Assembly (NCBI RefSeq): GCF_900090325.1
Contig: NZ_FMHW01000001.1
Location: forward strand, 1 to 31,618
DNA from: Micromonospora pallida
Lineage (GTDB): Bacteria; Actinomycetota; Actinomycetes; Mycobacteriales; Micromonosporaceae
Direction: 5' to 3'
Length of the DNA stretch: 31,618 nt
Positions within the stretch are counted from its first letter, which is position 1. Each line of letters starts with the position of its first letter. The position numbers and the translations under genes were made by a program. The notes under the pieces were generated by a model. The model was not told the origin of the DNA. It did no database searches and saw nothing but the letters and a program-made list of their open reading frames with translations. Of the stretch, positions 5,833-27,965 are shown piece by piece.

Positions 5833-6501
5833 TCACTCGGCCGTCGGGCCGTACGTTGCGCGCAGGTCGTCGCGCTTCATCGCCCGCACCTCGGCCTCGT
5901 CGAGGTCGGGGCGGGTGGCGATGACCCAGTCCGCCCAGGTCTCCTGCGAGGCATTGCCGGCCGGCGGCTCCGGCGTACGGTCACCAGCCGGCTGGCCGAC
6001 CTCGGCACCCAGCTCGGCCGTCACCTCCGGCACATCGCGGCGCTCCAAGAACACCTGCTCTGCGGCGGTGGTCTCCCGCCGCTGCTGCTCCTCGGTGTCC
6101 GTGATGACGACCTGGCCGCCGTCCTCGGTCCGCTCCAGCCGGCCGACCGGGCCAGGCACGATCGGCCCCGGGCCGGCCACTGCGTGGATGCCGGGCGCCA
6201 CCACATCCGGGCCGTGCGGGTTGGCCTGGCCGGCGTTGACCGGCGGAAGGAAGTCGGTTTCCCGCGGGTCGACGGCGGCATCGCGCAGTCGCGTGCCGAG
6301 CTGCTCCTCCGTGACGTCACGCGGGTCCGCCGGCTCCGGAGTGCCCTCGACCGGGCTGTCGGTGGTGCCGTCCACCTCGTAGCCGGCACCCCGGCAGTAC
6401 TGGATGACCGCCTGGTCGTCGGTCTCCGCGACGCCGTCGCGGAAGACGACGTCACCGATGCGCCCGTTGTACTCCCGGTTCGGGGCCTTGATCGTCGCCA
6501 T
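5833..6501 (-). CDS. Head-associated protein, possible LEM/HeH-like C-terminus
   Basis: 222 aa; ATG start overlaps the major capsid stop (ATGA), implying coupled translation. The N-terminal 45 residues (REYNGRIGDVVFRDGVAETD, AVIQYCRGAGYEVD) form a compact module found in actinophage head genes just downstream of the capsid gene. A long acidic, Pro-rich linker follows. The C-terminal about 35 residues (WADWVIATRPDLDEAEVRAM, RDDLRATYG) resemble a short helix-extended-helix fold. The role is unproved: decoration, head-completion or capsid-maturation proteins commonly sit here. Confidence 0.55.
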   Translation of the reverse strand: MATIKAPNREYNGRIGDVVFRDGVAETDDQAVIQYCRGAGYEVDGTTDSPVEGTPEPADPRDVTEEQLGTRLRDAAVDPRETDFLPPVNAGQANPHGPDVVAPGIHAVAGPGPIVPGPVGRLERTEDGGQVVITDTEEQQRRETTAAEQVFLERRDVPEVTAELGAEVGQPAGDRTPEPPAGNASQETWADWVIATRPDLDEAEVRAMKRDDLRATYGPTAE

Positions 6502-7508
6502 CAGGCCGAGACCTTCACGTTCCGCAGCACGCCCGCGGCACGGGAGCGCTTCAGGACCGGCGCGACCGGGCCCATCTCCACCTCACCGGTCTTGACCGCG
6601 CCGGCCTTGCTGAAGTCGGGCAGCCAGTTCTGCACGAGCGGCCGGCCCGCCATGCTGACGCCGTGGAAGCCATCCAGGCCGAACCGGACGGCGTAGATGT
6701 CGCTGAGGCCGGTGATGTTCCCGCCTGCGCCGCCCGCGTCCGCGTCCCGGGTGACCGTGCCGATGACGTCGTTGTTGCTGCCGGCCTTCGTGCCGAGGTC
6801 GACCAGGTCGATCCCGCGGTACTGCTCGATCGTCTCGCCGAACGCGTTGGTGGTCTTGTCGATCATGTCGGCCCACGCCGCGACGAACAGGAAGTACGCC
6901 TTGGTCAGGGAGTTCATGAACAGCGCGTCGGGCTTGGCGTCGAGCTTCCCGAGCCAGTTGTTGACGTGCAGCATGAACTGCAACGCCTTCTGCTTGGTGT
7001 CGATCGTGGTCATGTCCAGGTACCCGGTTGCGACGCCGTTGCTCAGCGGCAGGTACTCGGTGGTGGTGCCGGTCAGGATCTTCGACAGGCCGTCGAATCC
7101 GTTGGCGTCCACCGCGCTGTCCCCGTTGACCACCTGGTCGGCGAAGAACGCACGCGAGGCCTTGATCTTCTGGGACATCTGGAGCGCGGTCTCGGCGCCG
7201 GCCGCGACGCCGTCGAGCACACGGTCGATCTGGAAGGAGCCACCGAGCGGCTTCAGATCCACGCTGGCGCGGACCTTGGTGACCTCGGCCGGGGTGTACT
7301 CGCTGTTGATCGCGCGGAACGCGGCGGTCGGCTGCGAGGTCAGTCGGGTGTAGCCGTAGGTCAAGGTCGCGCCGTTGCCGGCCTGGTTCACGACGTCGTC
7401 GAAGGTGAGCTTGTCCAGCAGGTAGCTGGACTTCTGAAACTCGTCGATGACCTGGACATCGACGTCATCGGTGGCCATCAGCTTGGCCTGGGCGAGGGTT
7501 ACGGGCAT
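6501..7508 (-). CDS. Major capsid protein
   Basis: 335 aa; ATG start at 7508 with GGAG seven bases upstream. It begins MPVTLAQAKLMATDDVDVQV and contains ELLDKL-like YLLDKLTFDDVVNQAGNG, SQPTAAFRAINSEYTPAEVT, DLKPLGGSFQIDRVLDGVAA and a C-terminus rich in turns (GNITGLSDIYAVRFGLDGFH). The series 'LxLKPLGGSFxIDRVL' with 'SLxKAYFL' and 'YAVRFGLDGFHGVS' is that of an HK97-fold capsid protein group of actinophages and streptococcal Sfi-type phages. No N-terminal delta domain is evident, consistent with a separate scaffold gene immediately upstream in transcription order. Confidence 0.88.
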   Translation of the reverse strand: MPVTLAQAKLMATDDVDVQVIDEFQKSSYLLDKLTFDDVVNQAGNGATLTYGYTRLTSQPTAAFRAINSEYTPAEVTKVRASVDLKPLGGSFQIDRVLDGVAAGAETALQMSQKIKASRAFFADQVVNGDSAVDANGFDGLSKILTGTTTEYLPLSNGVATGYLDMTTIDTKQKALQFMLHVNNWLGKLDAKPDALFMNSLTKAYFLFVAAWADMIDKTTNAFGETIEQYRGIDLVDLGTKAGSNNDVIGTVTRDADAGGAGGNITGLSDIYAVRFGLDGFHGVSMAGRPLVQNWLPDFSKAGAVKTGEVEMGPVAPVLKRSRAAGVLRNVKVSA

Positions 7509-7522
7509 GGTCTACTCCGGTG

Positions 7523-8272
7523 TCAGGAGCCGCCGAGCTTGGCGGTGATCGCGTCGGTGAGGTTCTTCGGCTTGCCCTTCTGGCCGCCGGCACCGGAGTG
7601 GTCGGTGCCCTGCTTGCCCGGCCCTTGGCCGGTCGGGGTGGAGGCGAGCTTCGGGTTGGCCTTCACCGCCGCCTTAATCGCGGCGGTGACCTTGTCCGGG
7701 AAGTCGGCCGCGTCCGGGTCGAGGTCGGCGACCTGGGCGAGGAATCCGCGGCTGTCGAGTACGGCGTCCGGGTCTGCACCGGCCTTGCCGGCGGACTTGT
7801 AGACCGCCAGCTCGACGGCGGTCTCACGGGCGCGGGCGACGGCCTTGTCCCGCTCGGCGGCTGCGGCCTTGAGCTGCTCGGCGGGGTCGGTCTTCCCGTC
7901 CGGGGTGAGCCCGGCGGCCTTCAGTACGGCGGCGAGCCGTTCGTCGGCGGCCTTCCTCGCCTCCTTGGCCTTCTTCTCTCCCTCACGGGCGGCGGCCAGG
8001 GCGCGGGCGTGCCGGTCCGGATCAAACTCCCCGGTGATCTTCGGGGTCTTCGTCTTGTCGTCGTCCTGGCCGTCGTTGGCGCCGGCCTGGTCGTCGGTGC
8101 TCCCGCCGTCCTCGTCGCCGCCGGGGTCGCCCTCGCCGGATCCACCCGCGATGACGCGGATGGGTCGGCCGTCGCGTCGGTAGCCCAGGATCTTTCCCGG
8201 GGTGACGTGGTGGCCGGTGAGTGGGTTGACGAAGCCGGGCGTGACGGCGGTCGGCAGGGTGGTGCGGTCCAC
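7523..8272 (-). CDS. Capsid scaffolding protein
   Basis: 249 aa. GTG start at 8272 chosen for GGAGG six bases upstream; a longer frame upstream lacks a ribosome site. After a short N-terminal segment (TPGFVNPLTGHHVTPGKILG) comes an acidic Gly/Asp-rich stretch, then a long Ala/Lys/Glu helix likely to form a coiled coil (ALAAAREGEKKAKEARKAAD, EQLKAAAAERDKAVARARET). The basic C-terminus ends KNLTDAITAKLGGS. Position between minor capsid protein and capsid gene, low complexity and the charged coiled coil are typical of phage scaffolds, which template procapsid assembly and then leave. Frame intact. Confidence 0.8.
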   Translation of the reverse strand: MDRTTLPTAVTPGFVNPLTGHHVTPGKILGYRRDGRPIRVIAGGSGEGDPGGDEDGGSTDDQAGANDGQDDDKTKTPKITGEFDPDRHARALAAAREGEKKAKEARKAADERLAAVLKAAGLTPDGKTDPAEQLKAAAAERDKAVARARETAVELAVYKSAGKAGADPDAVLDSRGFLAQVADLDPDAADFPDKVTAAIKAAVKANPKLASTPTGQGPGKQGTDHSGAGGQKGKPKNLTDAITAKLGGS

Positions 8273-8331
8273 GGGTGCCTCCTTGAGGCTGTCGGGATGG
8301 TTCCCGCCGGGCCTCGCCGGCGGTGGTCTGG

Positions 8332-9480
8332 TCAGCGGCGCGGCAGGTTGCCAGCGCCGATCGCCTCGCGATACGGCAGCCTCTTCAGCTCCGGGTTCGC
8401 GGCGAGGTGGTCGCGCATCGTGGCCTGCCACTGGCGGACCTTCGCTGCGGCCGTGGCCTTGGCGGTGTCGTCGAGCGCGCCAAGTTCCCGCTCTTTCCAG
8501 TGGCGGATCTGCCGCTCAATGGCCCTCTGTCGTTCCTTGGCTTCGTAGCCCTTCGGGTTGGCCGTGGGCTTGGTCGGGCGGCGGGTTGCACCGGGCAGGT
8601 ACGACCGGAGCGCGTGCGTGCAGTTCGGGTGCTGGAGTCCAGCCGCGCGGGCCTCGGCGACGCTGCCGGCGATGTCCACCACCACGGTGCCGTCGCCGAC
8701 CATGCTGGGCAGCTCCACCCGGCCGCGCAGGGTGCCGGAGATGGAGAGCACCTTGCCTTCCCACGGCCGGCATCGCGGGCACTCGCGCGGAGAGTCGGAG
8801 ACCTCGACCGTGTCCACGCCGAGCGTGGTCAACCGGTCCGTCTGGCCCTGCACAGCGGCCCGCTGGGTGACGGTCCGCGTGCCCATCTCGACGTACGACG
8901 AGAGCCGCCAACGCCGGCCACCGGAGTCGACGAACGACACCACGCCCTGGTCGACGAACCGTGCGTACGCCCACTGGCTGGCCTGCCGACGGGTCATCCC
9001 GCCCGCCACGGACACGGCGGTCGCCTGCTGGATCACCGCTCGGTACACATCCAGGACGTGCCTCAAGACGTTGGAGTGCCGCTCCCCGACGTCGGCGACC
9101 AGTGCCGCAGCGAGGTTCTCCACCACGCCCGCGCGGGTGACCAGCTCGGCGACGACACCGGCCGCGCGGACAGCGTCAGGGTCACGCGGGAGCAGCGCCG
9201 CCGGAATGCCGGTGGTGGCAACCGCCTGACCGCCCCGGTACGCCCGGGCGATGGCCTCGCGGATCCGCTCCGCCCCCTCCACCTCCACCACACCAAGGAT
9301 CCGCTCGACGGTGCGCCGCAGCGTGCCGAGCGCGCCGAGGCGGGTGACCGCCCAGTCGGGGGCGTCGATGCCGGCGAGCAGATGCCGAGTGACCTCACGG
9401 AGGATGGCCTGCTCGGCGGCCCGGTACAGGTCGACCGTGTTGCGGGTGGCGGCCTCGATCTGGTCGCCGGTGAGGGCCAT
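8332..9480 (-). CDS. Phage minor capsid protein 2 family
   Basis: 382 aa, ATG start at 9480, three bases after the portal stop. The long helical N-terminus (EAATRNTVDLYRAAEQAILR) leads to SVAGGMTRRQASQWAYARFV, then the family hallmark region SSYVEMGTRTVTQRAAVQGQ, DSPRECPRCRPWEGKVLSIS and LQHPNCTHALRSYLPGATRR. The Cys pair in ECPRC and the HPNCTH motif suggest a metal-binding core related to the MuF/minor capsid group. These proteins sit at the portal vertex inside or at the capsid and may be ejected with DNA. The portal-minor capsid-scaffold-capsid order is SPP1/Sfi11-like. Confidence 0.88.
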   Translation of the reverse strand: MALTGDQIEAATRNTVDLYRAAEQAILREVTRHLLAGIDAPDWAVTRLGALGTLRRTVERILGVVEVEGAERIREAIARAYRGGQAVATTGIPAALLPRDPDAVRAAGVVAELVTRAGVVENLAAALVADVGERHSNVLRHVLDVYRAVIQQATAVSVAGGMTRRQASQWAYARFVDQGVVSFVDSGGRRWRLSSYVEMGTRTVTQRAAVQGQTDRLTTLGVDTVEVSDSPRECPRCRPWEGKVLSISGTLRGRVELPSMVGDGTVVVDIAGSVAEARAAGLQHPNCTHALRSYLPGATRRPTKPTANPKGYEAKERQRAIERQIRHWKERELGALDDTAKATAAAKVRQWQATMRDHLAANPELKRLPYREAIGAGNLPRR

Positions 9481-9483
9481 CTA

Positions 9484-11079
9484 CTACTCCTCGGCCGGCG
9501 GTTCCTCGGCGTCCTGGTCGGCGTCGTCGGCGGCCGGCGGGCCGTTCCCGGCGAGGGCGCCCAGGGCACCGCCCACCTCCACCGTCGGCGGGGCGTCGCC
9601 CTTGATCCGGGCAACCTCCTCGCGGACCTGGATGTCGTCCCACTCGGGATGGACCGTGCGGACCATCGTGTCGACGGAGACGGCCCCGGCAGCCGACAGG
9701 AGCTGCAGCGTGCGAGCGGTCGTCTCCGGGGACTCGCTGACGCTGTCGCCGAACTCGACATTGGGCCTGACCGGGTCAGCTTGGGCGTTGAGCTGGGCGC
9801 GCTCGACCGCCAGGAGTAGCTCGATAGCGTCGGCCAGCGCGGGCGCCCAGGTACCGATCCGGTTGCCGCGGGTCGTGAAGCTTTGCCGCTCCCGGGCCTG
9901 GACCTCGGTGGCCGTGACCGCGACGTCGCCCTCCTCGCCGAGGGTCTGCGACGACAGGCCGGCGTGCCGCAGCGCGGTCTCCACGATCGCGTCGGCGGTC
10001 GCCTTGTGCTCGGCGTGCCGGATCGCGAACTGGCTGAGGGTGATCCCGGCGTCGCCGCCCTGCTTGTTCGGCATTTGGGTGAGCGCGGTGAAGACTTCCT
10101 GCTCGGCGTCCCAGGTCGCGCCGTTCCCGGGACCCAACGACCGCAGCATGTACTCGGGCACGAGGATCCGGGAGCGGGCCAGCCGCAGGTCCCGCATCCA
10201 CGAGGTCCACACGTCATCGAGGGCGTCGAACCACTGCTCGTTGCCGTCGAAGTCGGAGCGGCCGAGGTACTTGAGGCCAGGCAGGGTGCGCCACAGGCGT
10301 TGCGGGCCGGCGTTCGGTACCCGCACCACGTCGAGGCGGTCCAGGCCGGTCGCCTGGCTGCTCTCTTCGTCGACCAGGTCCGCGAGGTACGCCGACGCGT
10401 TCTGCTCGGTGAGCGGCACGGCCCGTCCCAGGTGGGTGCTGGTGCCCTCGTGGAGGGCGTACACAATCCGCCCCGCACCGTTGACCACCTCGTGGTGTTC
10501 CAGCAGCCGCACGTGCACGTCCCCGTCGACCAGCAGCGTCGACCAGAAGGTGACCTCGATCAGCTTGCCCCACCGGATGACCGGCACGGCCCCGTCGGCG
10601 TGCACGGCTGCGAGGAATGCCCGGTCCGGGTAGACGTCCTCGTCGATGACGGGCCGGAGGTAGACGTCGCCGAGTGCGGAGTCGGCTTCGGCGGCGTGGA
10701 GCAGCACGGTGGCGAGGCCGTCCTCGACGAGCTGCTCCAGCCGGGCCATGACTGCGGTGTCTTCGTGGTCGAGCTTCGGCGGCTCGCTGAAGAGCAGGTT
10801 CGCCGAGGTGGCGGCGAGGTCGGCAGGCAGGGGCACGTGGAGGCGGCCGTCGCGTTGCCCGACCGGGGAGGGTGCGCCCCACAGCCAGCGGGACACCATG
10901 CCGACCAGGCCGCCGGACCGCTGGCCGGGGCGGGTCTTGGGCCGGGCCGTGGTGCGGTTGGCGTACACCTGGCCGAGCTGGTCAGGGCTCCCGCCGTACC
11001 AAGCATCCCAGTCGCGGTAGGCGTCGTAGGCGGGGGTGAGCTGCGGCGGCGGCCAGGCGCCATCGGTCGGGATCGGCAC
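9484..11079 (-). CDS. Portal protein (SPP1 gp6-like)
   Basis: 531 aa; GTG start at 11079 with AAGGAGG upstream, 13 bases after the terminase stop. Early region DAYRDWDAWYGGSPDQLGQV and YANRTTARP; then LHVPLPADLAATSANLLFSE, a region typical of portals of this family in actinophages. The segment DVWTSWMRDLRLARSRILVP followed by EYMLRSL and later LGEEGDVAVTATEVQARERQ corresponds to the clip/stem region and the long crown-facing helix. The C-terminus is acidic and probably disordered. The dodecameric portal is the DNA gate and terminase docking site. Frame intact. Confidence 0.9.
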   Translation of the reverse strand: MPIPTDGAWPPPQLTPAYDAYRDWDAWYGGSPDQLGQVYANRTTARPKTRPGQRSGGLVGMVSRWLWGAPSPVGQRDGRLHVPLPADLAATSANLLFSEPPKLDHEDTAVMARLEQLVEDGLATVLLHAAEADSALGDVYLRPVIDEDVYPDRAFLAAVHADGAVPVIRWGKLIEVTFWSTLLVDGDVHVRLLEHHEVVNGAGRIVYALHEGTSTHLGRAVPLTEQNASAYLADLVDEESSQATGLDRLDVVRVPNAGPQRLWRTLPGLKYLGRSDFDGNEQWFDALDDVWTSWMRDLRLARSRILVPEYMLRSLGPGNGATWDAEQEVFTALTQMPNKQGGDAGITLSQFAIRHAEHKATADAIVETALRHAGLSSQTLGEEGDVAVTATEVQARERQSFTTRGNRIGTWAPALADAIELLLAVERAQLNAQADPVRPNVEFGDSVSESPETTARTLQLLSAAGAVSVDTMVRTVHPEWDDIQVREEVARIKGDAPPTVEVGGALGALAGNGPPAADDADQDAEEPPAEE

Positions 11080-11092
11080 CGGGCCTCCTTCG

Positions 11093-12370
11093 TCATGCTG
11101 CGAGGTCGAGGGCTCCCTTCACCAGGGGGCGCCACAGCACCTCGGGGGTCTTGATCGCGTACCGGCCGGCGTCCAGGGAGTGGTCCCCGGCCTTGATCGG
11201 CTTGTCCTCACCCAGGAGCGCGGCTTTCTCGTCCCACACGTAGCCGGGGATCTCCTCGATCCAGCCCTCGCAGGACTCGTGGACGAAGAGCAGGCCCTCG
11301 GCGAGGAGACTGGCCACCAGGCGGATGCCGTCCAACACGTCGTTGTCGGCGTTGGTCGGGAGCATGCCGTCCCGGAAGAGCTGGGTGGAGAAGCTCGCGG
11401 CGGACGGGTCGACGCAGATCCAGTCCGGGCGGATGCCGAGCTTGTCGAGCCAGGCGCGCAGCCGGGCGGAGTACTCCGCGTCGGTGAGGCTGCGCTGCTG
11501 CTTCTTCGAGTCCCACCGCCACTCGCGGGCGAGGTACAGCTTCCCGTCGACGCCGACGCCCAGGAGCAGGCCGGCGAACGGGTTGGTGGTGCCGTAGTCC
11601 ACGCCCAGCGAGACCCACCGGGTGATGCCGGGCAAGGTCTTGACCACGTGCTTCGCGGGGTTCCAGCCCTCGTAGACGGTGCCCTCGGCCACGCACCAGT
11701 CGCCGAGGATGTTCCGCCGGTAGTAGAGGCCGGTGTACTGCCGCCGGTACCGGGCCTTGACCGCCTCGGAGAGGACCGGGTTGTCGTCGAGGAGGAACTT
11801 CAGCACGTACCAGTCACCGGCGAGGTCACCGCCCGGGCGGGCCCGCTCGATGCCCTCGGTCATCAGCCAGTGTCGCGGGTTGTCCGGGTTGGTGTTCCCG
11901 AAGATCTGGCTGCCGTCGACGGAGCAGCGGCCGAGGAGCTGCTCATGGAAGCTGCGGGGCATCAGGGACCACTCGTCGACGTACGCGCCCCGGCAGGTCA
12001 TGCCCCGGAGCCGGTTCTCGCTGCGTTCGTCGTTGAAGGTGATGACCTCGACCGTGGTGCCGAGGATCGTGGCGGTCGGTGCGCCCCGGGTGTACGTCGT
12101 CGCCTTGGCCAGCGGTCCGAAGAGCACCGGGTCTCGCAGCGGGTTGAAGATGTTCCGGACCGCCGTGTCGTACGTCTTCGCGGTAACGACCAGGTCCCCG
12201 CTCTTCGGGGTCTTCGGGTCGGCGAGGTACATCAGCCACCGGAGCAGACCGGAGGCGGTCTTCCCGGACCGGATGGCGCCCTCGGCGAGGTTGACGAAGA
12301 AGTTGCTCTCGCAGACGTACTCGATCTGCTTCTCCGACAGGGGCAGGCCCCGGAGGTCGACGCCGGTCAC
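11093..12370 (-). CDS. terL: Terminase large subunit
   Basis: 425 aa; GTG start at 12370 overlaps the small-subunit stop (GTGA). ATPase motor: Walker A GAIRSGKT at 31-38, Walker B YVDEW around 130-134 (Asp132, Glu133), and a coupling-type segment GNTNPDNPRHW near 158-168. RNase H-like nuclease: Asp258 in SLGVDYGTTNP, Asp321 in CVDPSAASF, and Asp396/Asp400 in GDHSLDAGRYA near the C-terminus. The pattern fits the PBSX/Terminase_3-type family and full family length. It translocates DNA into the procapsid through the portal and cuts the concatemer. Confidence 0.95.
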   Translation of the reverse strand: MTGVDLRGLPLSEKQIEYVCESNFFVNLAEGAIRSGKTASGLLRWLMYLADPKTPKSGDLVVTAKTYDTAVRNIFNPLRDPVLFGPLAKATTYTRGAPTATILGTTVEVITFNDERSENRLRGMTCRGAYVDEWSLMPRSFHEQLLGRCSVDGSQIFGNTNPDNPRHWLMTEGIERARPGGDLAGDWYVLKFLLDDNPVLSEAVKARYRRQYTGLYYRRNILGDWCVAEGTVYEGWNPAKHVVKTLPGITRWVSLGVDYGTTNPFAGLLLGVGVDGKLYLAREWRWDSKKQQRSLTDAEYSARLRAWLDKLGIRPDWICVDPSAASFSTQLFRDGMLPTNADNDVLDGIRLVASLLAEGLLFVHESCEGWIEEIPGYVWDEKAALLGEDKPIKAGDHSLDAGRYAIKTPEVLWRPLVKGALDLAA

Positions 12371-17177: not shown

Positions 17178-17367
17178 GGTGGGTCTCCTCGAGTTCGTGG
17201 CGGATGGCTCGTGCGCGGGCGGGGGTGACGTAGGGGTACTGCCGTCCGAGGGCTTCGTCGTCGTCCTCGGGGGCCGGCGGGGGGACGTGGGCCTGGGCGC
17301 GTCGGATGGCCTCGCGGGCGCTGGCCCTGGCCCGCTTCATGCCGGGCGTCAGGTGTCGGGTGGTCAT
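17167..17367 (-). CDS. Small basic hypothetical protein
   Basis: 66 aa, ATG start at 17367 overlapping the stop of the replication-initiator-like gene (ATGA). Basic and helical: TPGMKRARASAREAIRRAQA, then an acidic Pro-rich link and TPARARAIRHELEETHRAR. No domain recognised. Its immediate coupling to the initiator-like gene suggests a helper in replication (an analogy to helicase loaders, which lambda and similar phages place after the initiator), but it is very short and shows no motif for that. Confidence 0.55.
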   Translation of the reverse strand: MTTRHLTPGMKRARASAREAIRRAQAHVPPPAPEDDDEALGRQYPYVTPARARAIRHELEETHRAR

Positions 17368-18221
17368 GCGCTGCTCCGGGTGTGGGTGGCGCAGGCGTTG
17401 CCGGCGATCGGGTCGACGGCGAGGGTGGTCTGCCCTTCGGCGTGGCACTGGAGGCAGAAGCCGAAGCCCTCGCGGGTGGGCTGCCGGTCGGAGTTGGTCA
17501 CCAGGCGGAGGTTCGGACCGCGACCGGGCTGCGTCTCGCGCGCGCGGTCGTGAGTAACGGTGGGAGCTTGCGGTGGTAGCTGTTCCGCCGGAGAGAGTGA
17601 GCTTTCAATCCCAGTCCCAGGCGCCGGAGGCGACTGGGGGCGCAGGGGGTCTGGGGGCAGCGTGCCCCCAGAGGGAGGTTCCTGGGTGGTTTCTCGGGTG
17701 GTTCCCGGACGGTTCACGGGTGGTTCGGGGGGCGCTGCGTCCGTACGTACGTCGTCAGGATCCGTACGTACGGACTCTGTGTCGGTACGTACGAACGCAG
17801 AATCCGTACGTACCGACTCTGCGTCCGTACGCTGCTTCTTCTGCTTGCGCCGGTACTCCCGCAGCCGGGCTGCCTCAGCCGCCTTCTTCTCATCGATCTC
17901 GGCCTCTAGCTGAGCCCGCTCAGCGGGGTCGCGCTTCTTGGTCATGTCGAGGTTCCAGCGGGGGGTGCCCCACCGGGTGGTGCCGTCGGGGACCAGGAGG
18001 CCGGCGGCCTCGAGCCGAAGCTCGGCGCGCTGGATCGTCCGCTCGTCGAAACCGGTGCGCCAGATGACGTCGGCGATGCTGGCGTGGGTGTCGCGGCCGA
18101 ACTCGTCGGCACGCTCGGCACGGGCGACGAGCACCGCGCGGGCCGTCGTGTCCGGCAGGCCGGCCTTTGTGCGCAGCATGGGTGCCTCGTCGAGGGCCCA
18201 CTGCACGGCCTGGTAGCTCAC
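17364..18221 (-). CDS. HTH replication-initiator-like (replisome organiser) protein
   Basis: 285 aa; GTG start at 18221 with AGGAG eight bases upstream. Residues 1-90 form a winged helix of the HTH_36 type (VQWALDEAPMLRTKAGLPDT, ADEFGRDTHASIADVIWRTG, FDERTIQRAELRLEAAGLLV). A charged helix follows (AEIDEKKAAEAARLREYRRK), then five exact heptads of the type VRTDxxx at about 131-161, encoded by 21-bp DNA repeats, a Pro-rich linker and a C-terminal zinc-like part (FCLQCHAEGQ, CATH). Phage initiators such as lambda O carry the origin inside their own gene, with the HTH domain binding the iterons. Domain type, operon position and the repeats make this the best replication initiator candidate in the window. 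No polymerase or primase gene is visible, so host replication proteins are presumably recruited. Confidence 0.7.
   Translation of the reverse strand: MSYQAVQWALDEAPMLRTKAGLPDTTARAVLVARAERADEFGRDTHASIADVIWRTGFDERTIQRAELRLEAAGLLVPDGTTRWGTPRWNLDMTKKRDPAERAQLEAEIDEKKAAEAARLREYRRKQKKQRTDAESVRTDSAFVRTDTESVRTDPDDVRTDAAPPEPPVNRPGTTRETTQEPPSGGTLPPDPLRPQSPPAPGTGIESSLSPAEQLPPQAPTVTHDRARETQPGRGPNLRLVTNSDRQPTREGFGFCLQCHAEGQTTLAVDPIAGNACATHTRSSA
17740..17835. repeat. Five 21-bp iteron-like repeats (candidate phage origin)
   Basis: Copies of TCCGTACGTACG begin at 17740, 17761, 17782, 17803 and 17824, exactly 21 bp (two helical turns) apart; the first four keep the self-complementary GTACGTAC core, the last is degenerate (TCCGTACGCTGC). 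On the coding strand they read GTA CGT AC(G/C) GA(C/T). GTA for Val and CGT for Arg are unusual choices here, where GTC/GTG and CGG/CGC dominate, and they are kept in nearly all copies while the spacer codons vary. This suggests selection on the DNA and not only on the protein. Confidence 0.7.
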
Positions 18222-19872: not shown

Positions 19873-20134
19873 CGGACACCACCGCCGGCCCGCACTGCGG
19901 AGACTCACCAGACCGGCAGATCCGCTCCGTCAGGTCCATCTGGCCCTGGTTGTAGCGGTCCCACGCCTCCGCGCGCTCCGTGTGCGTGGTGCGGGCGTCC
20001 ATCAACTGGCCGCCGCCCACCTCACGCGGGTTGCGCGGGTCGTAGGAGTAGTCCTGCCAGTCCCGCCAGATCTGCTGGTGTGCCCCGCACAGGCCGGCGG
20101 GGGTCCGGCGGCTGAAGCGCGCGTACTCACCCAC
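19865..20134 (-). CDS. Hypothetical protein
   Basis: 89 aa, GTG start at 20134 overlapping the helicase stop by eight bases. Sequence GEYARFSRRTPAGLCGAHQQ, WRDWQDYSYDPRNPREVGGG, QLMDARTTHTERAEAWDRYN, QGQMDLTERICRSGE. It has CGAHQQIW and IC near the ends, possibly a single metal site. No family recognised. Coupled to the helicase gene, so co-expressed with it. Confidence 0.55.
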   Translation of the reverse strand: MGEYARFSRRTPAGLCGAHQQIWRDWQDYSYDPRNPREVGGGQLMDARTTHTERAEAWDRYNQGQMDLTERICRSGESPQCGPAVVSGG

Positions 20135-21914
20135 GGGACGCTCCGGCGGGCAGCGGGGCGGGCCAGGTGGCGCGGATGGCCGGGTTACACAGGAAGCAGT
20201 TGCAGCGCGACTTCTGGTCGGCCGCAGCCCGCTCCTGCTCCCGCTCGACGATCCCGGGCAGGCAGGCCATGCACAGGTCGCCGTGCATCGGCTCCAGGCC
20301 GGCAGCGATCTGCTCCTCGTCGGTCGCCCACTGGCAGCCGCCGGGGCACGGGCTGTTCTCGGTGCAGCCGCACCGGCGGCAATCCACGATCTCGCCGCCA
20401 CCGGCGTCGATCGGGTCCGGGGCGTCCGGCATGATCGCGGACTCCGGCCACCGCGGGGCCGGCGGCACCGGCGCCGCACCGGCCGGGCCGGCGTACCGGT
20501 CGATCCAGGCCAGCCCGTACCGGTCGAGCTGCCGCTGCGCCCGGGTCACCGCGACGTACGCCAGCATCGCCTCGTCCTCGGCGATCCGGTGCGTCCCGTC
20601 CTCCTGCTGGCGGGGCTCCGGGAAGTCGTCGGCGATCAGCACCGACCCCCACTCCCGGCCCTTGGCCTTGTGCGCGGTGCTGACCACCACGTCCGCGCGG
20701 TCCTCATCCACCAGGGCGTCACACACCCGGATCACCTCGCGGGTGCCGTGCTTGTCGATCAGCCGCACGAACACCCGCAGGTCGGACCCGCTCGCGTCGT
20801 GCTCGACGTACTCCTGGACCTCCGCCCAGCTCTGGAAGGCGAACAGTTCCGGGTGATCCGTCGGGAGCTTGGCCTGCAACCGCTGGGCGGCCTCGGCCAT
20901 CCGCCGGATGTCGGTGCCGCCACCGACGAGCGCGACCCGGCGGCCCTGGTCGATGGCGTCCATGACCCGCAGGACCGCCCCGCCGTTGGACCGGCACAGG
21001 ATCGCGTCCGGCTCGTCAACGGGCCCGACCCGGGACGGGATCCGGTCGTACCCGGTCAGCCGCAGCGGCGTTTCCAGCAGGGACAGCCACTTGTTCGCCT
21101 CCGCGGCGACCGCCGGCCCGAACCGGAAGGACTGGCTGAGCTGGAAGCGGCGGCCGTCGAAGCTGGCCATGGCGTCGGTCGCGCCCCGCCAGCCGTAGAT
21201 GGCCTGCGCGCGGTCGCCCACGAGGATCCGCTGCGCCGGCTGCCGCGACACCAGGCCGGCGACGGCCGGGTTGGAGTCCTGCGCCTCGTCCAACAGCACG
21301 TAGTCGGCGTGGATCACCGGGTCGGCAAGGATCCACATCTTCAGGTACATGTCGTGGGTGAAGCGCAGCCGGCCGTCGAGCTGGGTGAGGTCGGTGTCCC
21401 ACGCCTTCTGCGCGATGGGGATCAGGTACTTCGCCAGCTCTGCCTGGCCGGGCCGGTCGAGGCCGTTGACCAGCGGCACGTGCATCCGCTGGACCTCGCG
21501 GTCGTCGGAGTAGCAGAACCGCTGCACCGTCTCCCCGACGAGGCGGGCGAGCTGCTGAGGGGCGAGCATCGTCTCGCCGAGCTTCACCGGCTCGTTCAGG
21601 CCGAGGATGATCGCGGCCTGCCGAGCCGGAATGCGGGGCCCGTTGAGCCGGTGGGCGTACTGCCGGCCAACCGCCCCGTACGCGAAGGAGTGCGCCGTCT
21701 TGCAGGTGACGCTGCTCGGGAACTCCTTGGCCGCGTCGGTGGCGATGCTCTTGTTGTAGGCCAGGTAGGCGCCACGCCGGTTCGCCCGGTCGCGGGCCAG
21801 CATCTTCAGGGTGGACGTCTTGCCGGTGCCGGCACCGGCCTCGATGGTCAGGTCGTCGCCGGTGCGGGCGGCCTCGATGATCGCGGCCTGCTCGTCCGTG
21901 GGGGTATGGCTCAT
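20127..21914 (-). CDS. UvrD/Rep-family superfamily 1 DNA helicase with C-terminal zinc motifs
   Basis: 595 aa; ATG start overlaps the ATPase stop (ATGA). SF1A motifs: Walker A AGAGTGKTS (about 26-34), motif Ia NKSIA, motif II DEAQD (209-213), motif III GDRAQAIYGWRGA (233-245), motif IV QSFRFG, motif V VSTAHKAKGREW, motif VI YVAVTRAQRQ. It is shorter than cellular UvrD, with reduced accessory domains. After residue 510 a tail holds CRRCGCTENSPCPGGC (Cys at 512-527), CMAC (548-551) and CNCFLC (571-576), three Cys clusters for zinc. An ATP-driven 3'-5' helicase for phage replication or recombination is expected; pairing with the adjacent Sak4-like ATPase argues for recombination-dependent replication. 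Confidence 0.9.
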   Translation of the reverse strand: MSHTPTDEQAAIIEAARTGDDLTIEAGAGTGKTSTLKMLARDRANRRGAYLAYNKSIATDAAKEFPSSVTCKTAHSFAYGAVGRQYAHRLNGPRIPARQAAIILGLNEPVKLGETMLAPQQLARLVGETVQRFCYSDDREVQRMHVPLVNGLDRPGQAELAKYLIPIAQKAWDTDLTQLDGRLRFTHDMYLKMWILADPVIHADYVLLDEAQDSNPAVAGLVSRQPAQRILVGDRAQAIYGWRGATDAMASFDGRRFQLSQSFRFGPAVAAEANKWLSLLETPLRLTGYDRIPSRVGPVDEPDAILCRSNGGAVLRVMDAIDQGRRVALVGGGTDIRRMAEAAQRLQAKLPTDHPELFAFQSWAEVQEYVEHDASGSDLRVFVRLIDKHGTREVIRVCDALVDEDRADVVVSTAHKAKGREWGSVLIADDFPEPRQQEDGTHRIAEDEAMLAYVAVTRAQRQLDRYGLAWIDRYAGPAGAAPVPPAPRWPESAIMPDAPDPIDAGGGEIVDCRRCGCTENSPCPGGCQWATDEEQIAAGLEPMHGDLCMACLPGIVEREQERAAADQKSRCNCFLCNPAIRATWPAPLPAGASRG

Positions 21915-23212
21915 CCGGCCATCTCCATCTCGCGCTGCGCGGGCGGGGTCTGCTGGGCGATGAACGACTCGGTCCGCTCGATCACCCGGGCCACCTCGTC
22001 GTCCGTGAGGTCGTTGGTGCTGCCGACCGGCCGGTTGGCGATGTCGCTGACGTACGCCAGGCGCTCGTCCCGGTCGGTGATGTCGGCCTGGCCGAGGAGG
22101 GCGAACATCTTCCGGCGCTGCGGGTCGTTGCCCGGGTTCTTCGCCGGCGGGAACAACTCGTTCTTCCGGGCCTTCCACCGGCCCTGGATGTGCTCGGCCT
22201 CGGCCGGGCTGATCCGGCCCTCGTTGACCGCCTCGCCGGCGGCCCGCCACACCCGGCGGAGCCCGGTCTCGTCGCTGGCCTGCGCCAGGTCGTGAAGCAG
22301 ACCGGTGGCGGCCGCGGAGAGGGCAGCGGGCGGCCCGGAGGTCGGCCGGTTGGCCGGCGGCCCGGACACGGGACGGTCGTCGTCCGGCTCGGCCGGCTGC
22401 ATCGCGACCAGGTCCCGGACGTGCGCCTCGGCCGGCGCGCATTGCAGCGTGTCGAAGACGATGTTCTCGACCGTCCAGTTCCGCGCCAGCTCGATCGGGT
22501 CGTCGTAGCCGGGCCGGATACCGACGTGCACCGACCGGACACCGATCACCGTGCCCGGCTTCGACCGGTCCAGCCGGATCCAGCACGACACGTCGAAGCC
22601 GAGCGTCTTGTGGCCCTCGACCCGGTACTCGCGCTGACGCTCGATCGGCTTGCCGGCGTCGTCGAGGGCGGCTACCTCCTTGCCGCGGGCCGTCAGCAGG
22701 ACGATGCCCGGGAAGGTCATCAGGGTGGTCATCAGCTTGCGGTGGCGGGCACCGGCCTCGTTCCACAGGTCCATCGAGATCTTCGGCTCTTCGTCCGGGC
22801 CGAGGGGCTTCGCGTTGTACTTCCGGACCTTGACCTCGTGGCGGCGGCGGGCCTTGTCGGAGGCCCAGTCCTTGAGCAGGTCCCACTCGGCGGTCATCGA
22901 GTCGATGACCAGCACCACCGGCGGTTCACCGGCGGCGGCCGCGCGGGCGGCCTCGGCCTTGACGGCGTCGACAGCGCCCTGGATCTGCGCCCAGGTGCCG
23001 TTGTGCTCGACGACCAGGTAGTTCGCGCCGGGGATGGCGCCGTACTCGTCGGCGGCTCCCTCGCCGAGGTCGATCCAGTACATCTGGCCGATCCGCGGGG
23101 AGGTGGAGAACTGGGCGCAGGCCCAGGACTTGCCGGACTTCTCGCCGCCCTCGATGAGGATGAGCGGCCACGGGACACGGCCGGTCGGGCGGCGGGTCTT
23201 CAGGGTGGTCAT
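21911..23212 (-). CDS. Sak4-like RecA/AAA-family ATPase (phage recombinase type)
   Basis: 433 aa, ATG start overlapping the preceding stop (ATGA). Walker A EGGEKSGKS (21-29), Walker B VVLVIDSM with Asp104. The segments GQMYWIDLGEGAADEYG, KLMTTLMTFPGIVLLTARGK and EYRVEGHKTLGFDVSCWIRL follow the RecA-like AAA_24 phage nucleotide-binding family that includes Sak4 annealing proteins. A Pro-rich linker (about 280-300) leads to a separate helical C-terminal domain (TGLLHDLAQASDETGLRRVW, EAEHIQGRWKARKNELFPPA). It likely promotes single-strand annealing in phage recombination, usually with an SSB, which I do not find here. Confidence 0.8.
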   Translation of the reverse strand: MTTLKTRRPTGRVPWPLILIEGGEKSGKSWACAQFSTSPRIGQMYWIDLGEGAADEYGAIPGANYLVVEHNGTWAQIQGAVDAVKAEAARAAAAGEPPVVLVIDSMTAEWDLLKDWASDKARRRHEVKVRKYNAKPLGPDEEPKISMDLWNEAGARHRKLMTTLMTFPGIVLLTARGKEVAALDDAGKPIERQREYRVEGHKTLGFDVSCWIRLDRSKPGTVIGVRSVHVGIRPGYDDPIELARNWTVENIVFDTLQCAPAEAHVRDLVAMQPAEPDDDRPVSGPPANRPTSGPPAALSAAATGLLHDLAQASDETGLRRVWRAAGEAVNEGRISPAEAEHIQGRWKARKNELFPPAKNPGNDPQRRKMFALLGQADITDRDERLAYVSDIANRPVGSTNDLTDDEVARVIERTESFIAQQTPPAQREMEMAG

Positions 23213-25406: not shown

Positions 25407-25673
25407 TCAGCTCGTCTTGGTGCGGGGCCGGCGGCGGGCGACCCGCTCCGCCGTCCCAGCGAGGTCCTGCTCGCGCTGGCTCGCCGTCGCGCTCGTGACC
25501 GTTGCGCCCTGGAGTAGCTCCAAGACCTGCTCGCCGGTGAGGTAGCGCTGCTTGCCGATCTTGATGTGGGTGAACGCCCGCTTCCGGGCCTTCCGCTGGA
25601 GACCGATCAGCGACAGCCGATACCGCTCCGCGACCTCCTCCAGCAGGTGGAGCTCGGGCAGTGCCTGGGTCAT
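25407..25673 (-). CDS. Small HTH_17-like DNA-binding protein
   Basis: 88 aa, ATG start at 25673 overlapping the excisionase stop (ATGA). [20 protein letters not shown] with [20 protein letters not shown] gives a winged HTH like that of MerR-type excisionases: recognition helix, short wing ([10 protein letters not shown]) and third helix. A Lys/Arg-rich C-terminus follows ([13 protein letters not shown]). Together with the preceding gene it makes a tandem pair of similar small DNA-binding proteins; one may be the recombination directionality factor and the other an early regulator. Confidence 0.7.
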
Positions 25674-25876
25674 CCCGTCCTCTCTTCCGCCTTGACGGTG
25701 TGGGCCTCGAGGTAGGCGGTGAGGCTGGAGAGCGGGATGCGGATCGAGCCGTTTGGGCCGTCGGCCTTGATCGCTGTGAGCGCGCCGGCCTTGATGTACC
25801 GGCCGATGCTCCAGCGGGAGACCCGCAAGCTCTTCGCGACCTCGTCGACGGTCAGGTACTGCTCCGTCGTCTCCAC
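25670..25876 (-). CDS. Excisionase-like (HTH_17/MerR) protein, first early gene
   Basis: 68 aa if translated from GTG at 25876, which has GAGG at a six-base spacing; further GTG codons at 25882, 25888 and 25891 are possible but lack a site. TTEQYLTVDEVAKSLRVSRW, SIGRYIKAGALTAIKADGPN, GSIRIPLSSLTAYLEAHTVK is the classic excisionase/BldC-type winged HTH. It is the promoter-proximal gene of the early operon and lies next to the repressor and integrase, as expected for a directionality factor that works with the integrase in prophage excision. Confidence 0.85.
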   Translation of the reverse strand: METTEQYLTVDEVAKSLRVSRWSIGRYIKAGALTAIKADGPNGSIRIPLSSLTAYLEAHTVKAEERTG

Positions 25877-25891
25877 CCGCACCCTCACCAC

Positions 25892-25977
25892 CTTGCATCG
25901 AATCGTAGCGTGTCCGTGCGATTCAAGACGTTAGACGACACGGCAAGACGATGCAAGACGCTACGGTGCAAGTTGCA
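25892..25977. promoter_or_regulatory. Operator cluster between excisionase and repressor genes
   Basis: Several repeats lie in this intergenic region. CTTGCATCG (25892-25900) recurs inverted as CGATGCAAG (25949-25957); CGTAGCG (25904-25910) recurs inverted as CGCTACG (25959-25965). CAAGACG occurs at 25924, 25944 and 25954, spaced 20 and 10 bp on one face of the helix. TGCAAGTTGCA (25967-25977) is a perfect 5-1-5 palindrome. This is the place and style of a lysogeny switch bound by the adjacent repressor and/or the HTH_17 proteins. Confidence 0.65.
25928..25956 (-). promoter_or_regulatory. Candidate early promoter
   Basis: On the minus strand TTGCAT (25956-25951) and TAACGT (25933-25928) are separated by 17 bp, a good sigma-70-type match. 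Transcription would start near 25921 and run into the excisionase gene. The CAAGACG repeats overlap both hexamers, so a repressor bound there would block the early operon. Confidence 0.5.
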
Positions 25978-26048: not shown

Positions 26049-26450
26049 ATGAGCGAACGGGGTGTTGCCTACGCCTTCTGGCTGCGAGTGCGGTCCGAGC
26101 AGGCCACGCGCGGCTGGACGGACGACGAGCTGAAAGAACGCTCGGGCATCGCCCGTACCACCATCGACCGCCTCGCCAAGGGCAAGCGGCCACCGCTTGC
26201 CCGGGTCGTTAACTCCCTCGCCAAGGCGCTCGACATCGACAACGACGAGGCGCACCGGCTCGCCGGCCGACTACCCGGAGAACCGGACCAGGCCGAGGGC
26301 GAGCCGTCCCCGGCGGAACGCCGGATCAGCGCCCGCGAAGCCGTCCTGAACGACCCAGACCTCAACGACCAGCAGAGGGCGGTCATCCTCGGCGTGATCG
26401 ACCTGATCACCGGAGGCGGCGGCGAGGATCAGGGGCGCCAGGCGTCCTAA
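26049..26450 (+). CDS. XRE-family HTH repressor (immunity candidate)
   Basis: 133 aa from ATG 26049; an alternative in-frame ATG at 26001 would add 16 residues that look like translated control region. The HTH is clear: AFWLRVRSEQATRGWTDDEL, KERSGIARTTIDRLAKGKRP, ARVVNSLAKALDIDNDEAHR. The C-terminal half is short (ARRxx-free, ISAREAVLNDPDLNDQQRAV, ILGVIDLITGG) and lacks a LexA-type Ser/Lys peptidase, so induction by RecA-driven self-cleavage is not expected. No Shine-Dalgarno precedes either ATG, so a leaderless mRNA, as for lambda cI, is possible. Divergent from the excisionase operon and convergent with the integrase; the two stop codons overlap at 26447-26450. Confidence 0.85.
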   Translation: MSERGVAYAFWLRVRSEQATRGWTDDELKERSGIARTTIDRLAKGKRPPLARVVNSLAKALDIDNDEAHRLAGRLPGEPDQAEGEPSPAERRISAREAVLNDPDLNDQQRAVILGVIDLITGGGGEDQGRQAS

Positions 26451-27784
26451 TCCGGTCGCGCCGACTTACGAGCGTCCGCCACCGCGTCCACCGCAGCGTC
26501 GATCGCCTGCGGCATCAGGTCCCCGTAGATCTCGCTCGTCGTGGCGAGCTGCTGGTGACCAAGCAGCCGCGAGATGGCCAGGGGAGTCATCCGGGGGTCG
26601 CTGAAGAGCCAGCTCGCGTACGTGTGCCGTAGGTCGTGCCACGACGGCGCGGAGTGCAGCACGGTGGGACAGTCGCAGTCCGACACCGATCCGACCCGGG
26701 GGCCGTAGTGCGCCGCGCACCGCGTCGTGTCGTCGACAACCCGGGCGCCACACGGCTGCCCCGCCCACGTCGTACCGCCGTAGTCTCGGCACCGACCGCG
26801 CGCGCCCTCCAGGCGCTCACCCTCGCCGGTCGGTGGGTGAGTGGGGCAGAGACGGGCCCGGAGAAGGGCCGGCTTCCACGCCTGGTCGTACATCCGGTCG
26901 TAGTCCAGGGCACCCTTGTCATCCCGGAAGATAAGCGTCTCTGGCGGCTGCCCCTCGACGAGTTTGGTGAGTGTGCGGTAGAGGTCGTCGCCGATTGGAA
27001 GAACTCGCTTGGCCCGGCCCTTCGTCGTGCCCAAGTACCGCTTGCCGCTTGCCTCCTTCCACGCCCGCCAGACCCTCAACCTCGGCCCCGAGGAATCAGT
27101 GGCCGGCACGAGGTGCATTGCGGCCAAGGCGGTCACTTCCGACCAGCGGAGCCCGGTTTCGACGATGCAATCCAGCAGCGAATGCCACTGCTTGGCAAAC
27201 TGGGCACGCAGCAGCTCGAACTGCTGCGGCGTCAGGTAGACCGCGTGGTGCTCACCGGTGTCGTCGTCGGCCCGTTGATCCCGGATGAAGTCTGTGCCGT
27301 GGCACGGGTTCACGCTGATGTGCCCGTGGCGCATGGCAGCGGTGAGCGCGGTGTGCAGCAGCGAGTAGTAGCGGGTCACCGTCTTCTGGCTCATCCCGCT
27401 GGCGCGTAGTTCGTTTAGCCAGGTGCCGATAGCGACCGACGTGAGCTGAGGCAGGGGAGTGTCGCCGAAGGCGGGGTATATTCTGTCGCGGAGCTGTTGT
27501 TCGTACCGCTCTCGCGTTCCAGGTGAGATGCGAGTCTTCGACGGTAGCCATTCCTCGCACCACTGTTTCAGAGTGATGCCATCATCGGCAGGGGAATTGG
27601 AATCCCCCGTGGGAATGCCCATATCCGTGTACACGCGGTCGGCGGTGATGCGCCCTCGGTGGCCCTCGACGATCGATTTCGCCTCGTTGGCGTATTCCTC
27701 GGCAGGCCACGAGGTGTACTGCTTCTGGCCGTCGTACCGCCAGACGACCCGCCAGGAGTCCCCTCGTCGCTCGATGCTCGCCAT
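26447..27784 (-). CDS. int: Tyrosine-recombinase phage integrase with Cys-rich insertion
   Basis: 445 aa, ATG start at 27784. N-terminal arm-binding part (RRGDSWRVVWRYDGQKQYTS), SAM-like core-binding domain about 68-165 (ITLKQWCEEWLPSKTRISPG, SQKTVTRYYSLLHTALTAAM) and a catalytic domain with Arg213 (ETGLRWSEV), Lys255 or Lys259, His383 and Arg386 (HDLRHTYASW), His410 (LLGHQQ) and the nucleophile Tyr420 (SEIYGDLMP). Unusually, about 65 residues (312-378) with Cys313, 332, 345, 356, 370 and 372 plus His316 and His359 are inserted just before the HxxR motif, probably a zinc module. It recombines attP with the tRNA site at 27921-27965. No recognisable Shine-Dalgarno; the start codon sits in a palindromic region. 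Confidence 0.95.
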   Translation of the reverse strand: MASIERRGDSWRVVWRYDGQKQYTSWPAEEYANEAKSIVEGHRGRITADRVYTDMGIPTGDSNSPADDGITLKQWCEEWLPSKTRISPGTRERYEQQLRDRIYPAFGDTPLPQLTSVAIGTWLNELRASGMSQKTVTRYYSLLHTALTAAMRHGHISVNPCHGTDFIRDQRADDDTGEHHAVYLTPQQFELLRAQFAKQWHSLLDCIVETGLRWSEVTALAAMHLVPATDSSGPRLRVWRAWKEASGKRYLGTTKGRAKRVLPIGDDLYRTLTKLVEGQPPETLIFRDDKGALDYDRMYDQAWKPALLRARLCPTHPPTGEGERLEGARGRCRDYGGTTWAGQPCGARVVDDTTRCAAHYGPRVGSVSDCDCPTVLHSAPSWHDLRHTYASWLFSDPRMTPLAISRLLGHQQLATTSEIYGDLMPQAIDAAVDAVADARKSARPD

Positions 27785-27920: not shown

Positions 27921-27965
27921 CTCATAATCCCTCGGTCACGGGTTCGAGTCCCGTCCGCCCCACCA
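27921..27965 (+). other. Right attachment site: 3' half of tRNA-Met(CAT)
   Basis: The sequence holds a correct anticodon loop CTCATAA (27921-27927, anticodon CAT), 3' anticodon strand, five-base variable loop, T arm ACGGG-TTCGAGT-CCCGT (27938-27954), acceptor strand CCGCCCC (27955-27961), discriminator A and CCA (27963-27965). Upstream bases do not pair with the acceptor or the anticodon stem, so the 5' half is absent. This is the hallmark of the distal copy created when an integrase inserts at a tRNA anticodon loop. GCCGATCGGC (27912-27921), a perfect palindrome, abuts the core. Confidence 0.85.

Follow-up and report, generated by a model that had tools for sequence, protein, structure and literature searches.

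Origins of replication that lie inside the gene of their own initiator protein are already known. In lambda and the Stx phages the origin is within the initiator gene, and the lambda iterons, placed mid-gene, are imperfect inverted repeats (available text of PMC7466680). The origin is also inside the initiator gene in the pSK41 and pT181 families and for the pPR9 hybrid Rep, which has a pfam13730 (HTH_36) domain (available text of PMC5703833). In phage SPP1, the replisome organizer binds direct repeats (oriL) within its own gene 38; a further origin, oriR, is present in this phage, as are an AT-rich unwinding element and a loader and helicase of its own (available text of PMC6316719). The available parts of PMC6669507 and PMC4569894 contain nothing on intragenic origins. 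Among the papers listed by the literature searches, mostly non-subscription papers and with AACCNCC not among the queries, none deals with origins located within genes in Micromonospora or Streptomyces prophages, which is weak evidence of absence.

The locus described here is from Micromonospora pallida and lies in a stretch of 31,618 bp (the window), which is the entire contig C1 of a 7.76-Mb genome in four contigs. It is a candidate intragenic iteron origin of a Micromonospora prophage in its own initiator gene, a reading to which we give a probability of about 0.86, and it would be a variant, in GC-rich DNA, of the arrangement seen in lambda O, pSK41 rep and SPP1 gene 38. What is variant here appears to be the GC-rich form, with a word that changes between viruses.

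The lambda O/ori arrangement, with which this locus had been compared in a preliminary description of the DNA, is indeed among the closest known systems when considering the mid-gene place of the repeats, the comparable codons at which they lie and the codon-shuffle signal, which is likewise found at the annotated ori of lambda O. The differences are that AT-rich DNA comes after the iterons in lambda, whereas an AACCNCC tract and a GC hairpin are found here, that no P-like helicase-loader gene is named among the 20 window ORFs scanned (several small ORFs adjoining the initiator gene being outside the scan), and that the sequence resembles O-like families only weakly (phrog_391, E 0.043). The pSK41/RepA_N rep and the pPR9 hybrid Rep belong to low-GC plasmids; here there is no RepA_N Pfam match (no row at E <= 1 in six proteins), and many unrelated winged-helix folds score the same or higher against the window protein. 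The likeness to SPP1 is in the repeats inside the gene of the replisome organizer; the second origin, the AT-rich element and the own loader and helicase are SPP1 features.

The prophage at the tRNA-Met gene

The element is a Micromonospora prophage at a tRNA-Met gene, and the nearest named relatives in the homologue searches are also Micromonospora. It has the features of a temperate phage: an integrase, att repeats at a tRNA gene, and packaging and head genes. From the right end, the gene order is integrase and excisionase-like genes, a DNA helicase and RecT-like region, the initiator-like gene, and then terminase, portal, head and tail genes (Table 1), with PHROG matches in 15 of the 20 window ORFs scanned. 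The matching tRNA-Met gene (L104, 2491-2567) is in the right part of the chromosome contig C2, both ends of which are inside the prophage, and on contig C4 (41,855 bp) the two prophage ends are joined across the 45-bp core, which is the attP junction. The prophage length is about 40.2 kb, as obtained from the matches (12.26 kb on C2 and window positions 1-27965).

The assembly thus holds the prophage three times: split over the ends of C2, as C1, and as C4 with the attP junction. The initiator gene copy of C4 has in-frame stops in the search output, perhaps due to long-read indel errors, with the array retained.

Table 1 Coordinates of the initiator-like gene, its DNA elements and the prophage genes in the window
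Feature	Position	Strand	Basis
Replication-initiator-like gene (285 aa; GTG start, AGGAG six bases upstream)	17364..18221	-	ORF, translation, PHROG, homologues, AF2
Predicted winged-helix domain (about the first 91 codons), presumed iteron reader	17949..18221	-	pLDDT >90; HTH_36 weak here
C-terminal Cys/His-rich segment (FCLQCH...CATH), ordered in the model	17367..17474	-	Translation, AF2 model
Iteron array (four palindromes and a half-site)	17739..17831	-	Word counts, codon shuffles, relatives
GTACGTAC palindromes (8 bp)	17743-17750, 17764-17771, 17785-17792, 17806-17813	-	Exact 21-bp steps
Half-site TCCGTACG	17824-17831	-	In register with the array
AACCNCC tract (11-bp period, 4.8 copies), directly downstream of the array in gene sense	17673..17726	-	Tandem repeat row
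Perfect hairpin TCTGGGGGCACGCTGCCCCCAGA (10-bp stem, 3-nt loop), encoding part of SGGTLPPDP	17650..17672	-	Hairpin search
Attachment core (attR), 45 bp	27921..27965	.	Identical sequence at the tRNA-Met gene 3' end (L104) and at the attP junction of contig C4
Integrase gene	26447..27784	-	phrog_1, E 2.2e-51
Excisionase-like gene	25407..25898	-	phrog_1840, E 1.2e-5
ORF with DNA helicase (UvrD-type by eye)	20127..22886	-	phrog_1967 DNA helicase, E 5.4e-93
Head and packaging genes (major head protein, head morphogenesis, portal, terminase large subunit)	6501..12370	-	PHROG matches

The initiator-like protein

In the AF2 model, the protein consists of an ordered winged-HTH N-terminus, a linker and a small Cys/His C-terminus; the linker, over the array, is modelled with low confidence, as if unstructured. 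It is possible that the Cys/His segment forms a zinc site. The protein matches the PHROG replication-initiation families (phrog_1032, phrog_270 and phrog_391), the best match being phrog_1032 (E 1.7e-5, residues 2-181), which is in agreement with its earlier description as an HTH protein of replisome-organiser type. When considering the relatives, P0076 reaches 1e-11, and the close relative P0003 has a weak match only (phrog_2447, E 0.0021). The scores for Pfam HTH_36 (PF13730, cut-off 25 bits) are 16.6 for the window protein (P0001), which is below the cut-off, 12.2 for P0003, 24.9 for P0040, 24.6 for P0044, 24.4 for P0028 and 29.7, above the cut-off, for P0076.

A Foldseek search of the PDB with the model gives no match at E <= 0.001, the best matches being mostly transcription regulators, and in a second fold comparison the RepA-type initiators are not set apart from many other winged helices. 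The PDB sequence search gives a single weak match (1v4r, E 0.021), and in NCBIfam four of five proteins are without a match, P0076 having weak rows for regulators. The best BFVD match is gp71 of the Streptomyces phage TurkishDelight, whose gene passes the same codon test as used below.

The iteron array

There are four copies of GTACGTAC in the window, all of them in the array, when 0.12 are expected, and at least four are found in none of 100 shuffles. The 12-mer TCCGTACGTACG is exact at 17740 and 17761 and has one mismatch at 17782 and 17803. Five copies spaced by 21 bp had been proposed; four palindromes are at exact 21-bp steps, and the fifth copy (17824) is a half-site, because only its first 8 bases are kept. 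The 14-bp palindrome TCCGTACGTACGGA is exact at one array site and in the C4 copy, and at no other site in the 7.76-Mb genome.

The repeats encode R/V-R-T-D heptads of the minus-strand gene (codons 131-161, starting about 390 bp into the gene), and all repeats of the window are in frame 0. The codon choice is as had been described, with GTA in 4/4, CGT in 4/4 and ACG in 3/4 of the four VRTD units, and it is unusual, GTA being 2.7% of the Val codons and CGT 6% of the Arg codons in 11 prophage genes; GTA is found at 0 of the 9 remaining valines of the protein (GTG start excluded). Four copies of GTACGTAC are seen in none of 5000 within-gene synonymous shuffles, and all 5000 resamplings from prophage codon usage have at most two. 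With a blunter measure, the count of the commonest 8-mer (6), the observed value is reached by 3/5000 synonymous shuffles and 28/5000 codon-usage resamplings.

The array DNA is at the 98th percentile of instability in window positions 1-27965 with 58% GC, and is not AT-rich. The 100-bp segments starting at 17650-17750 have 58-69% GC. No AT-rich unwinding region is found beside the iterons, the downstream 100-bp segments (starts 17525-17700) having 64-72% GC, and the GC skew has no turning point at the array.

Conservation of the repeats as DNA

A search for relatives found 84 homologues among 7997 scored candidates, these being the candidates sharing most words. The genome-contig scan gave no relatives with a single protein as the query, and relatives were found with alignment A1; there was no match in plasmid records, nor in viral scans with the single proteins P0044, P0025 and P0054. 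DNA for 79 loci (14 + 65) together with the window gives 80 CDS (window and L024-L102), of which 70 are distinct after leaving out L045 (no usable frame) and nine duplicates. The very distant L101 and L102 are within the 70 CDS of the shuffle test and outside the 68 CDS of the word, frame and palindrome counts.

In the four VRTD relatives (window, L024, L025 and L039), the codons are GTA for 15/15 valines, CGT for 15/15 arginines and ACG for 12/15 threonines. The synonymous differences at identical residues are 5/108 in the cores, 109/528 in the N-terminus, 29/240 in the C-terminus and 0/42 in the hairpin (core versus rest, Fisher p = 0.025 with 18 core columns, a small sample). These rare codons are kept between relatives that are 71-79% alike in protein, and VRTD repeats with freely varying codons, the outcome that the preliminary description had named as refuting, are not seen among the four VRTD relatives. 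Since the core sample is small, the family-wide test weighs more.

When the linkers (codons 101-210) are compared by their repeated 8-mers on both strands, the count in 69 of the 70 CDS is above that of every one of 300 synonymous shuffles, and in the remaining CDS one shuffle equals it, such that all 70 are at <=3/300. The N-terminal control (first 100 codons) exceeds all 300 shuffles in 0/70 CDS and is at <=3/300 in 5/70, so that this control is imperfect. The comparison of 69/70 linkers with 0/70 N-termini argues that the repetitiveness is kept in the DNA and not in the protein. Together with the differing palindromic words of the relatives and their presence in other frames, it bears out the suggestion that the DNA sequence is the conserved entity. 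The spacer word TCTGCG/CGCAGA (either orientation) is at 4.94 per kb in the linkers versus 0.49 in the N-terminal regions of the 68 CDS, a tenfold difference. Perfect palindromes of at least 8 bp are hardly enriched (2.5 versus 2.0 expected per 390 nt, 68 CDS), and this weak enrichment across the family suggests that the palindromic packing is confined to some classes.

Some linkers have other forms of repetition. Those of L046, L071 and L075 contain long perfect inverted repeats with stems of 16-18 bp. In L101 and L102, GDIPSG peptide repeats (GACATTCC words) follow the HTH, and a segment of DnaA N-terminal type, as judged by eye, comes after them.

The test was also applied to isolated phages. 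In lambda O, where the annotated iterons are about 116-144 codons in, codons 96-205 have 24 repeated pairs versus 2.7 expected, a value reached by 0/500 shuffles. Nine other genes of this general kind give 0/500 in six cases (ST64T gp18, Pseudomonas phi2, Arthrobacter Toulouse, Pseudomonas AV001, Vibrio 1.135.O and TurkishDelight gp71) and 2/500 for Vibrio K67, 6/500 for Shewanella 3/49 and 7/500 for Anoxybacillus A403. Some N-terminal controls are repetitive too (Pseudomonas phi2 0/500, lambda O 6/500, Toulouse 6/500). As the codon-shuffle test flags the known lambda origin from sequence alone, it could help to locate intragenic origins in other phages.

Diversity of the iteron words

Members of the family do not share one conserved iteron word, a point that is absent from the preliminary description. 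The word TCCGTACGTACGGA is found in the window, L024, L025 and L039, TCCACACGTGTGGA in L026 and partly in L040, TCCGTGACGTCACGGA in L041, GTCACGCA words in the Streptomyces relatives, GTAACGGA in L028 and L046 and GTCCGGGA in L043, and GTCACG-type words are also present among the relatives; the ARAD class and the distant VRTD class rest on peptides. Between TCCGTACGTACGGA and TCCACACGTGTGGA the changes are paired in both arms, and the dyad symmetry is thereby retained. Among proteins P0001-P0085 (85 in all), the first and third heptad residues are V/T in 67 cases, T/V in 20, A/A in 19 and another pair in 28, which is what palindromic pairs of codons should produce. Half-sites of the GTCACG/GTAACG types are distributed over the three frames as 180/81/28 in sense and 64/16/0 in antisense orientation.

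The tree of the N-terminal domain is weakly resolved, with 51 of its 99 inner branches open. About 16-22 changes of iteron class are placed on it, and it appears that the specificity shifts often. This tree has 102 of 147 rows, with P0084 excluded and only 11 locus rows of the VTD class kept, and for most rows the class labels are from peptide patterns, not from DNA. In the wing, P78 is found in 14/18 VT rows versus 1/19 other rows and P87 in 16/18 versus 3/19; with only one independent pair on well-supported branches, this association is a lead only and is not independent of the phylogeny.

The AACCNCC tract and the hairpin

The tract and the hairpin that adjoin the array had been missed in the preliminary description. 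In the region of nucleotides 361-780, at least two AACCNCC or AACCATC words are found in 42/68 CDS, in frames 48/58/48, with spacings of 12, 11 and 10 bp being commonest (27, 25 and 8). AACCNCC alone is at 4.75 per kb in this region versus 0.04 per kb in the first 360 nt. The hairpin is the best hairpin in 9/70 CDS, with a compensatory stem change in two of these (L040 and L042), and its core or a close form is seen in 13/70. In none of the Streptomyces genome loci is it the hairpin that was found, and it therefore looks lineage-limited. That it is a common genomic repeat was rejected: its 19-bp core matches one site, that of the window, in 7.76 Mb, the C4 copy not being exact.

AACCACC or AACCATC repeats directly after the iterons are also found in the Pseudomonas phage AV001 (annotated replisome organizer) and in the Arthrobacter phage Toulouse; in lambda and ST64T there is AT-rich DNA after the iterons instead. 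A scan for three AACCACC words 3-5 bases apart gives at least 120 viral stretches. Of the 120 listed, 81 were set aside as having only the 12-bp, in-frame period; in the 80 loci with printed peptides, the stretches of 12-bp period are by eye mostly repetitive Pro- or Thr-rich coding sequence. For the 39 listed stretches with another period, 20 ORFs were PHROG-scanned and 11 belong to replication-initiation, helicase-loader or primosomal families (L186, L202, L238, L258, L260, L268, L277, L279, L297, L299 and L301); three more (L203, L226 and L240) have the initiator sequence of the present family. This gives a raw count of 14/39 listed stretches across O-like, DnaD-like and primosomal families, and the remaining 25 are unmatched, matched otherwise or outside the scan. 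No other repeats precede the tract in L238 and L299. In L207 and L291, AACCACC arrays are beside Cro-like or repressor genes and not inside a recognised initiator.

A tentative and somewhat doubtful generalization is that the AACCNCC tract, with its helical spacing, serves intragenic-origin phages in general as an origin element not described before. It would replace or reinforce the AT-rich unwinding region in GC-rich genomes and recur in unrelated initiator and primosome families, while the iteron word diversifies with the winged helix, such that each phage has a private origin.

Function of the array

If the array is the origin, the N-terminal winged-helix domain would bind the 21-bp-spaced palindromes as dimers, in a complex like the lambda O-some, and because 21 bp is two helical turns these dimers would be on one face of the helix. 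The complex would put strain on the adjoining AACCNCC tract, next to which the hairpin lies, and open it, and the C-terminus of the protein may help to load the host replicative helicase. In this way, the anatomy corresponds to that of lambda ori, with a winged-HTH reader, iterons in the linker codons and then the place of duplex opening. The array encodes only a disordered linker, so that the DNA would be free to follow the specificity of the protein by paired changes of the palindrome arms.

It could also be proposed that the array is an operator, at which the HTH protein autoregulates by blocking transcription within its own gene, and not a start of replication. Palindromic sites for a winged-helix protein also fit a repressor, as do the transcription regulators among the best Foldseek matches (none at E <= 0.001), but we regard this as unlikely, when considering that the array begins some 390 bp inside the gene, that the linker is repetitive in 70/70 CDS (<=3/300 shuffles), that the PHROG matches are replication-initiation families and that this anatomy is also seen in lambda O, whose role as an initiator is proven. 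The operator and origin functions are compatible and not mutually exclusive. Clustered palindromes are also typical of centromere and packaging sites. However, a partition (parS-like) or packaging site that lies by chance within the initiator gene is highly improbable here, as the prophage is integrated and has its att sites at a tRNA gene, the PHROG scan of 20 window ORFs (15 with matches) names no Par protein, and the terminase gene is about 5 kb away. The least probable proposal, and one already largely refuted, is a coding heptad repeat selected at the protein level (for example for partner binding), with DNA likeness from recent duplication: tandem heptads are common in linkers, the repeats of the window are all in frame 0 and the segment is modelled as if unstructured, but the relatives encode quite different peptides there, their DNA words also lying in different frames and on the opposite strand, the rare codons are kept, and 69/70 CDS exceed the codon shuffles. 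Generic drift of tandem repeats, and selection at the protein level, were likewise rejected by the codon shuffles, the family test and the comparison of the VRTD relatives.

The intragenic origin, being the preferred reading, provides a concrete candidate for a large group of actinobacterial prophages, for which the replication start was not found in the literature searched. From the AACCNCC tract that they share comes a testable proposal for the opening of a GC-rich origin that has no AT-rich stretch. The family, with one initiator fold and at least six DNA words at the same place, is a natural series for studying the choice of origin. Among viral stretches with two GTACGTAC copies 21 bp apart, only L141 and L039 of 20 are of this family, and among those with three CACGTG words only L172 of 21, as judged from contig name and printed ORF. 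CACGTG or GTACGTAC repeats 21 bp apart are within coding sequence in L162, L168, L170, L174 and L150, and the encoded protein is, by eye, helix-turn-helix or replication-like in L162, L168 and L170.
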